Source of the DNA: Tomocerus qinae
Taxonomy: Eukaryota; Arthropoda; Collembola; Entomobryomorpha; Tomoceridae
Direction of reading: 5' to 3'
DNA length: 64,000 nucleotides
Assembly (NCBI GenBank): GCA_020055645.1
Contig: CM034546.1
Span: forward strand, 111,073,375-111,137,374
The notes below the pieces were generated by a model. It was not told where the DNA came from, did not search any database, and saw only the letters and a program-made list of their open reading frames with translations. Numbering within the stretch: the stretch's first letter is position 1; every line of letters starts with the position of its first letter. Position numbers and translations under genes: made by a program. Positions 4,402-50,833 of this stretch are shown here, piece after piece.

Positions 4402-4659
4402 GGAGGTGAAAATTCTTTACCGCTTTTCTTCCTACTTCAAAATCCAGAAGACAGCTTACACCTTACAATACAAAGAAAACCGTGACAAATGATTACAACT
4501 TTATGACATTTGTTTTACTGATTTACACACTGCATATATTCAAGAAGTTTATTATAATATTTGTTTACATTCTCGGCCCCCGGTTCGCCTTATCATTCTT
4601 TCTTATCGCAAATTCGTCAACCACGTCTGTTCGGGACAAGATAGAGATAGACAAGGAAG
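4330..4659 (+). promoter_or_regulatory. Probable promoter and 5' UTR of the zfh1-like gene
   Basis: This is the GC-richest part of the left 8 kb, with CpG-containing stretches around 4346-4360 and 4571-4740, directly upstream of the first coding exon. A TATA-like string (TTATAATATTT) lies near 4550-4562. ATGs at 4488 and 4503 would open upstream frames; the one from 4503 overlaps the main start out of frame. Initiation therefore probably lies downstream of about 4510, or those uORFs reduce translation. The transcription start cannot be fixed by eye. Confidence 0.4.
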
Positions 4660-4747
4660 ATGATGGCAAGTGTCAGTCAAGTTCAGGCCGCCGTTTCAAA
4701 TTCGGCCAGATGTCGCCGGAAACAGGCCAAACCGCGCCGAAAAAAAG
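4660..4747 (+). CDS. zfh1: First coding exon (partial gene) of a ZEB/zfh1-like zinc-finger repressor
   Basis: Seen: ATG-ATG opens a frame of 29 complete codons plus one base that runs into a 5' splice site (AAAG|GTCAGT, GT at 4748). An in-frame TAG at 4648-4650 lies just upstream, so the start is here; the second ATG has A at -3 and G at +4. The peptide begins MMASVSQVQAAV and ends with the basic motif RCRRKQAKPRR followed by KK. Known: ZEB1/ZEB2 begin with a closely similar Cys-(Lys)-RRKQANPRR motif on a tiny first coding exon before a very long intron; SALL, FOG and TSHZ proteins have related N-terminal RRKQ motifs, several of which bind RBBP4 of the NuRD corepressor. As I recall, the ZEB1 exon also ends in phase 1, as here. 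Inferred: N-terminus of an arthropod ZEB/zfh1 orthologue acting as a nuclear repressor. A spalt- or teashirt-class gene is the main alternative, because no zinc finger or homeodomain is in the window. Confidence 0.58.
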
Positions 4748-5157
4748 GTCAGTTTCCTGTTGTCTTATTTATAAGCTTTTATCCTTAGATTTCAGTGTTC
4801 TTAAGACATTTACTCAAATGGTACACAGTACACATCGATTGCTTATCGATTTTTGAACGTGATCATTCATCTATCAGGATTTCAGACTCAGTAAATACCT
4901 GTATTTGAAAGACACAGTTCATAAATATTATAATGAGTTATGATTTCGAATTTTAATTTAACAAAATTCTCTCCGTTATTACACAACATACTTATGTCAT
5001 AATGCTTATGCTTGCTATTTATGTACGCATTACTAAATGAATATACCATGCCTTCGTAAACTACTGCATGTAAGCATGGATATATAGTTATTTGTAGTAT
5101 AACTATATTATAATGCTGGAAAACCGACACTACTGTGGCCATATCATAATGTGTCAT

Positions 5158-42301: not shown

Positions 42302-42493
42302 GTAGTAGACTGGGAGGGATACAATGACTCTCTCAGACTAGACTGGGAGTGATGCCTTTGGTAATAATTACGTGATAATTACCAAACGGTAATAACTAGA
42401 GAAATGATACTTGCACCATCGATTAAAACTAGTTAAATTAGTCTAGATTTAAAATTTTATTAAATAAGTACTAACATCCCAATCAAAAGATAT
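42302..42493 (+). repeat. Left arm of the MITE inverted repeat
   Basis: Imperfect inverted copy of 42532-42713. The outer 20 bp match with a single difference and divergence grows inward. Confidence 0.8.
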
Positions 42494-42531
42494 TGCAATG
42501 AAAGCTGACATAGTAAAAAAGAATTTATGTG

Positions 42532-42713
42532 ATATCTTTCGAACGGGACGTCCGATCTTAATAAGATTTCAAATCTGGGATAATTAGACTAGTTTTAATC
42601 GATGGTGCTAATATCATCTCTCTAGATATTACCATTTGGTAATTATCATGTAATTATGACCAAAGGTATCCCTCTAGCCTGAGAGAGCCATTATATCCCT
42701 CCCAGTCTACTAC
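42532..42713 (-). repeat. Right arm of the MITE inverted repeat
   Basis: Mirror of the left arm. A small deletion relative to the left arm lies near 42675, where the second ACTGGGAG-like block of the left arm is shortened. Confidence 0.8.
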
Positions 42714-48106: not shown

Positions 48107-48500
48107 TGTAACACAAAATGTGTGTATCCCGGGTTCCCTCGGCACGGCAACTAAAACTACTGATGAATTTAGCAGTGCACTGAGTGCAGTGCAAGATTAT
48201 GCAATACCAAAGTATGCAGTGATGGTAGTATGCCAAATAAATAGGCTGATGCTATTTAGGCAGAGAACTACGAGAGTCTCAATAAGAGAGAGAGCCTGTC
48301 TCCGGAACGGGAGCAGGAGGAGAAGATCTTCTGAGAGAAGAAATGCTTCTGAGGGAAAATGGCCCTCGGACAACTGTTTATATATGAAGAAGCTCCTCCT
48401 CTCCCAAAATTACTTTGTTGCCATTGGCTAGGCCAAATGGAACATTCCAAGTTGTTTCCAAACAACTGGAAACCTAGGAAACGAATCGGCATTCGTGACA
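48107..48500 (-). repeat. 3' LTR (in element orientation)
   Basis: 394 bp, identical to 50440-50833 by eye. It contains a strong hairpin at 48445-48471 (TTCCAAGTTGTTT pairing with AAACAACTGGAA) and an adjacent imperfect inverted repeat at 48421-48440. An open frame on + from 48120 lies wholly inside the LTR and is not a gene. Confidence 0.93.
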
Positions 48501-50439: not shown

Positions 50440-50833
50440 TGTAACACAAAATGTGTGTATCCCGGGTTCCCTCGGCACGGCAACTAAAACTACTGATGAA
50501 TTTAGCAGTGCACTGAGTGCAGTGCAAGATTATGCAATACCAAAGTATGCAGTGATGGTAGTATGCCAAATAAATAGGCTGATGCTATTTAGGCAGAGAA
50601 CTACGAGAGTCTCAATAAGAGAGAGAGCCTGTCTCCGGAACGGGAGCAGGAGGAGAAGATCTTCTGAGAGAAGAAATGCTTCTGAGGGAAAATGGCCCTC
50701 GGACAACTGTTTATATATGAAGAAGCTCCTCCTCTCCCAAAATTACTTTGTTGCCATTGGCTAGGCCAAATGGAACATTCCAAGTTGTTTCCAAACAACT
50801 GGAAACCTAGGAAACGAATCGGCATTCGTGACA
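50440..50833 (-). repeat. 5' LTR with promoter (in element orientation)
   Basis: Identical partner of 48107-48500. On the minus strand it carries a CCAAT box (complement of 50756-50760) about 40 bp before a TATA box (TATATAA, complement of 50711-50717), followed by an initiator-like CTCAGAAG. This supports transcription on the minus strand. Confidence 0.9.
50711..50717 (-). promoter_or_regulatory. TATA box of the retroelement LTR
   Basis: TATATAAAC on the minus strand, with CCAAT upstream. The same sequence occurs in the other LTR at 48378-48384. Confidence 0.6.

Follow-up and report, generated by a model that had tools for sequence, protein, structure and literature searches.

A tiny start-codon exon with a NuRD interaction motif, probably joined over a 161-kb first intron to the zfh1 (ZEB-family) gene of Tomocerus qinae

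The zfh1 genes are well known, and that of Drosophila has a layout of C2H2 fingers, homeodomain and C2H2 fingers. Vertebrate ZEB1 and ZEB2 have two zinc-finger clusters, a homeodomain that deviates and no longer binds DNA, and CtBP motifs, with four consensus sites (PMC8304685). In ZEB2, the start codon lies on a small exon which carries the NuRD motif. This exon encodes 24 residues and ends in AGGAAAAACG, that is R K N plus a single G (PMC4505893). In the numbering of that article, the start codon is at 523 and the exon ends at 595, which gives 73 coding nucleotides and a phase-1 end. The NuRD interaction is lost when R22 of ZEB2 is changed to G (PMC8304685), and ZEB2 deficient in the NuRD interaction motif (NIM) fails in Schwann cells (PMC6379090, PMC8304685). 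The consensus of the N-terminal NIM is described as RRKQxxP and its partner as RBBP4; SALL, BCL11, FOG-1 and ZNF827 carry this motif at their N-termini, and ZEB2 itself is placed in an 'internal' class, RK(x)xxPxK/R (PMC11602157). In the fly, a single zfh1 gene is listed (PMC2889900), and it was proposed from genetics that Zfh1 and Mi-2 cooperate in silencing Notch-responsive enhancers (PMC6379090). As for the motif exon in an arthropod zfh1, no report was found in the open-access literature among the matches listed. Among the same matches, zfh1 and RRKQ occur together only in PMC4505893, on human ZEB2, and the available passages of PMC9890238 gave nothing on the N-terminus of Zfh1.

The DNA analysed here is a stretch of 64,000 bases from the collembolan Tomocerus qinae (hereafter the window; C1:111073375-111137374), and the genome searched with it comprises 334 Mb in 115 contigs. 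On the + strand, window positions 4660-4747 translate into MMASVSQVQAAVSNSARCRRKQAKPRRKK plus one G, followed directly by a GT donor. The coding part of this exon is thus 88 nt, or 29 codons and one nucleotide, and ends in phase 1. The NIM-like sequence RRKQAKPRR occupies 4714-4740 and fits the RRKQxxP consensus (PMC11602157). An in-frame TAG at 4648-4650 leaves no start in this frame earlier than the ATG at 4660. The splice donor is GTCAGT at 4748-4753 (AAG/GTCAGT at 4747/4748). Coordinates, frame, motif, donor and phase all hold, and a tiny coding exon at 4660-4747 is confirmed. A preliminary description of this DNA had reported an 88 bp exon with an RC-RRKQAKPRR motif and a phase-1 donor, and all of these agree, with the one correction that 88 bp is the size of the coding part and not of the whole exon. 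It had also pointed to a longer overlapping frame in a different phase, which is found at 4410-4856 from stop to stop (148 aa) and has no Pfam match. In the genome searches made, exon 1 occurs once: a DNA search and a peptide search (E<=10) each matched the window alone. The 29-residue peptide by itself gave no match in Pfam and PDB searches. A bacterial promoter scan, which is not applicable to animals, returned chance-level numbers.

The resemblance of exon 1 to the start exon of ZEB2 extends beyond the core motif, over RC-RRKQAxPRRK. The exon ends in CGA AAA AAA G, read as R K K plus G, so that ARCRRKQAKPRRKK plus G stops at the residue, and in the phase, at which the published ZEB2 exon stops (PMC4505893). 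The counterpart of R22 of ZEB2, the second R of PRR, is kept, and the peptide also fits the 'internal' RK(x)xxPxK/R class in which ZEB2 is placed. In a local alignment with the 24 residues of ZEB2, the exon-1 peptide scores 57, a value reached by none of 2000 shuffles of the peptide. The N-termini of other NIM proteins score lower: 28 for BCL11B, of which 19 residues were compared (a score equalled by 13 of 2000 shuffles), and 32 for SALL2, of which 10 residues were compared (equalled by 3 of 2000). Both proteins start with MSRRKQ and, over the residues compared, do not show the RC-RRKQ...PRRK context of exon 1. SALL, BCL11, FOG-1 and ZNF827 are not known to have a homeodomain.

The preliminary description had expected, on the + strand and no more than about 200 kb away to the right, a gene that combines C2H2 fingers with a homeodomain. 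The window was extended by the 200 kb that follow it on the contig, giving 264,000 bases without N. The whole body of a zfh1/ZEB gene, with an acceptor of compatible phase, was found there on the + strand, separated from exon 1 by 160,974 bases. The absence of any zinc-finger gene over this distance, which had been named as the outcome that would speak against the reading, was thus not observed. In the scan of the 264 kb, zinc fingers and homeodomain on the + strand begin near 165.9 kb in window-equivalent coordinates, and the only confident C2H2 fingers on this strand are those of zfh1. Exon borders were set by eye alone, from a three-frame print and homology. The resulting model has ten exons on the + strand. 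Exons 2 to 5 lie at window-equivalent positions 165722-165966, 166273-166416, 168623-168748 and 169493-169748, exons 6 to 8 at 169970-170794, 170886-171064 and 171184-171540, and exons 9 and 10 at 171624-172230 and 172304-172506. GT-AG borders occur at all nine introns, and the coding sequence of 3,030 nt encodes 1,009 residues with a single terminal stop. For exon 3, an alternative acceptor 3 bases away also keeps the frame. The acceptor of exon 2 (TTAATTGTAG, splice at 165721/165722) is in phase 1, as is the donor of exon 1, and AT TCG at the beginning of exon 2 completes a GAT codon with the final G of exon 1.

The modelled protein has seven fingers in a 4 + 3 arrangement, a homeodomain and one PLDLS, and Pfam recognises in it both C2H2 fingers and the homeodomain. 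The N-terminal cluster of ZEB proteins consists of four fingers, the last of CCHC form, and the corresponding fingers of the model begin at 165883, 166273, 166366 (continuing at 168623) and 168656, the last being CCHC-like. The fingers of the C-terminal cluster begin at 172158, 172315 and 172399. Between the two clusters is a single homeodomain at residues 578-633 (Pfam E 2.6e-14). A finger signature, FSHSGSYS-SH/QH, is one that we take to be typical of ZEB, and no paper on it was found in the open-access literature. Exon 8 encodes the CtBP motif AEQPLDLSTKK; the whole protein has one exact PLDLS and two PLNL, against four consensus sites in ZEB (PMC8304685). The homeodomain retains its WFQN core, in contrast to the vertebrate ZEB homeodomain, which has lost DNA binding. 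The long isoforms of Drosophila zfh1 possess two more N-terminal fingers (PMC5919756), and planthopper Zfh1 is described with nine fingers (PMC9515195); the finger scan of the 264 kb found no N-terminal fingers beyond the seven of this model. The sequence after the stop codon, which would include the 3'UTR, was inspected for regulation. There, the 7-mer CAGTATT, presumably the seed site of miR-8/miR-200, is absent within about 30 kb, and the weaker AGTATTA occurs at 173187 and 174802. Farther downstream, at 184087-184512 (L014:87-512) on the - strand, is an exon for a SAM domain, and a frame beside it has an FCS-like cluster of cysteines. We take this combination to be of polyhomeotic type, and it suggests a polyhomeotic-type gene on the strand opposite to zfh1.

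Exon 1 is most probably (about 92%) the start-codon exon of the zfh1 gene of this genome, which would encode an NIM and be spliced over a 161-kb intron to exon 2. We infer the junction 4747/165722 from phase, frame and likeness to ZEB2. The zfh1/ZEB-class repressor proposed in the preliminary description thus gains support from a gene body of compatible phase and from the ZEB2-like end of the exon. After splicing over the giant intron, exon 2 would begin the zinc-finger and homeodomain body. The two zinc-finger 'hands' would then place Zfh1 on its target sites, while the exon-1 peptide would dock NuRD, a remodelling/deacetylase complex, by its RBBP4-type subunit and CtBP would be recruited by the PLDLS of exon 8. 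By recruitment of NuRD and CtBP, the targets would be shut off. The binding of NuRD by the exon-1 peptide and that of CtBP by PLDLS are both predicted from the motifs.

The identity of the gene body was compared with other loci of the genome. The best genomic match of the model homeodomain is the zfh1 locus itself, and the three best matches of the first finger cluster all lie in the zfh1 gene, the fourth being 50% identical. The genome searches gave no second zfh1 locus, so that on these searches the locus appears to be the single zfh1 of the genome, compared with two genes, ZEB1 and ZEB2, in vertebrates. At C2:23.03 Mb, apart from this locus, an open frame of 1,945 residues has three homeodomain matches and fits zfh2. 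Taken alone, the homeodomain has its nearest solved structure in 2da3 (E 7.8e-12), which from its old entry name we take to be ZFHX3, while 2e19 ('Transcription factor 8', presumably ZEB1) is 27th of 45 listed structures; it is therefore not to ZEB that this homeodomain comes closest. Such an order would be explained by the divergence of the vertebrate ZEB homeodomain (PMC8304685), and with that divergence, closeness to the ZEB homeodomain is not defining for invertebrate members. Elsewhere on C1, open frames with C2H2 zinc fingers form large clusters, for example at 18.0-18.4 Mb and 59.6-60.0 Mb among the matches listed, which suggest a lineage-specific expansion.

Because exon 1 ends at a ZEB2-like residue and phase and a compatible zfh1 body follows, the window beyond 4748 would be the first intron. 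Its first 59,253 bases (4748-64000, + strand) fill the rest of the window, and its end would lie outside at 165721, for a length of 160,974 bases. The preliminary description had explained the lack of genes in the roughly 59 kb that follow by a giant first intron of a developmental repressor. Such an intron is indeed the likely content of this stretch, which makes up about 37% of it and not the whole. No significant zinc finger was found in intron 1 (best i-E-value 0.51), and no Rfam match reached the gathering score in the 264 kb. Open reading frames of at least 100 aa number 23 on the + strand and 48 on the - strand of the intron. All 23 on the + strand were compared with Pfam (one over its first 101 codons only) and none reached the cut-off; 22 had no match and one, a 113-residue frame at L008:463-801, matched YIF1 weakly. 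As a gene, this frame was rejected as probably a chance match, since it stays below the cut-off, the genome has its real YIF1 matches elsewhere, at C2:4.26 Mb, and no other relative of it was found in the genome. On the - strand, 12 of the 48 were compared, of which 11 had no match and one was hAT-like below the cut-off. This hAT-like frame, at L005:2376-3821 (- strand), has 482 residues and a weak match to hAT-type transposase. Two identical direct repeats of 394 bases (48107-48500 and 50440-50833), with TG...CA ends and GTAC flanks outside, look like a young short LTR element of about 2.7 kb. An inverted repeat at 42347-42674, with 117-nt arms that are 86% complementary and 94 nt apart, is possibly a MITE or foldback element. 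The intron is probably regulatory DNA, and it could also hide a gene of small exons without known domains. Being so large, it may contain a small exon that escaped detection, or another first exon for other isoforms. Long phase-1 introns have been described as a class in human and mouse genes (PMC7259759), and no paper on the first intron of ZEB2 was found in the open-access literature.

Exon 1 may be used in some isoforms only. Promoters near exon 2 would then produce Zfh1 without the NuRD motif, and the giant intron would part two regulatory programmes. This is compatible with exon 1 being the start-codon exon of zfh1, so that the odds of the two overlap, and we regard it as a real possibility, somewhat short of even odds. 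Precedents exist in Drosophila zfh1-short, which has another start site and is shorter than the long isoforms by two N-terminal fingers (PMC5919756), and in SALL2, which switches its MSRRKQ motif by the choice between first exons E1 and E1A (PMC7937961). The model itself has an in-frame Met at residue 52, in exon 2. On the other hand, a single zfh1 isoform is described from planthopper transcriptomes (PMC9515195).

The same Met could serve a very different history, in which exon 1 is a chance open frame with a coincidental RRKQ-like peptide and zfh1 starts at residue 52 or at another first exon. The junction is, after all, read from sequence, and when the 334 Mb were searched with a loose DNA pattern for RRKQxxPRR, 6 sites matched, while the reversed control matched 2. 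On translation, three of the six, exon 1 among them, have exact RRKQxxPRR. Thus the bare motif is not rare in the genome, and exon 1 owes its significance to position, donor and phase: it is on the correct strand, upstream of the body and in the correct phase, and its likeness to ZEB2 exceeds the core and ends at the same split codon. When the 264 kb were scored against the ZEB2 core (from PMC4505893), exon 1 reached 46, far above everything else: the second-best + strand site had 31, no - strand site exceeded 28, and 20 simulated sequences of 264 kb had maxima of 23-29. A chance frame is thus very improbable. It is scarcely credible that exon 1 is owned by another NuRD-motif gene, whether of the spalt, BCL11, FOG or teashirt class, and that zfh1 is downstream by coincidence. 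The 'AKP' of exon 1, which we take to resemble the spalt type, counts in favour of such an owner. Several C2H2 repressors also start with RRKQxxP (PMC11602157), but the alignment favours ZEB2, the confident fingers on the + strand of the 264 kb are those of zfh1 only, and ownership by spalt or BCL11, the two classes whose fingers were compared with the genome, was rejected because spalt-type fingers have their best genomic match at C2:26.06 Mb and BCL11-type fingers at C3:3.28 Mb, on another contig.

Similar exons were looked for elsewhere in the genome. A loose pattern of ATG, an S-like codon and RRKQxxP has 7 genome matches, compared with none for the reversed control, and three of the seven read MSRRKQxxP on translation. 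Two of these are open into a phase-1 GTAAGT donor, at 40 nt in the case of C2:17440634 (MSRRKQSNPKPLK; L026) and at 46 nt in that of C2:24755960 (MSRRKQAKPRAVLLK; L027). The frame of the third closes after 13 residues, and no donor is listed ahead of its stop. The remaining four are not MSRRKQ: the second codon is a stop in two of them, and the other two, MRRRKQ and MCSRKQ, are without a listed donor. No zinc fingers were found in the 10-kb stretch downstream of each of the two open exons, and the spalt-type fingers on C2 lie on the strand opposite to the MSRRKQxxP exons. In a ZEB2-BCL11B fusion, the first 24 residues of ZEB2 replace the first 19 of BCL11B (PMC4505893), from which it would follow that the first coding exons of the two genes end in the same phase. 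In view of these two exons, the fusion phase, the switch of SALL2 and zfh1-short, a first exon that serves as a portable NuRD tag is plausible, though not proven. We tentatively suggest, while holding it to be rather unlikely, an ancient separable module in which a tiny start exon with the NuRD motif ends at a phase-1 donor and is followed by a long first intron. It would have been kept in zfh1/ZEB since before the split of arthropods and vertebrates and would recur in unrelated repressors, and promoter choice alone would decide on NuRD recruitment.

A 2021 review considers it 'not firmly shown' that invertebrate Zfh1/ZAG-1 and vertebrate ZEB are orthologous (PMC8304685). A start exon with the NuRD motif that is shared between them, with the same intron position and phase, would be simple evidence for this orthology. 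If flies keep the motif, exon 1 also suggests a physical link behind the genetic cooperation of Drosophila Zfh1 with Mi-2/NuRD. Tiny exons far from the body of a gene are presumably easily missed by annotation, and models of zfh1 may therefore be without their repressor tag.
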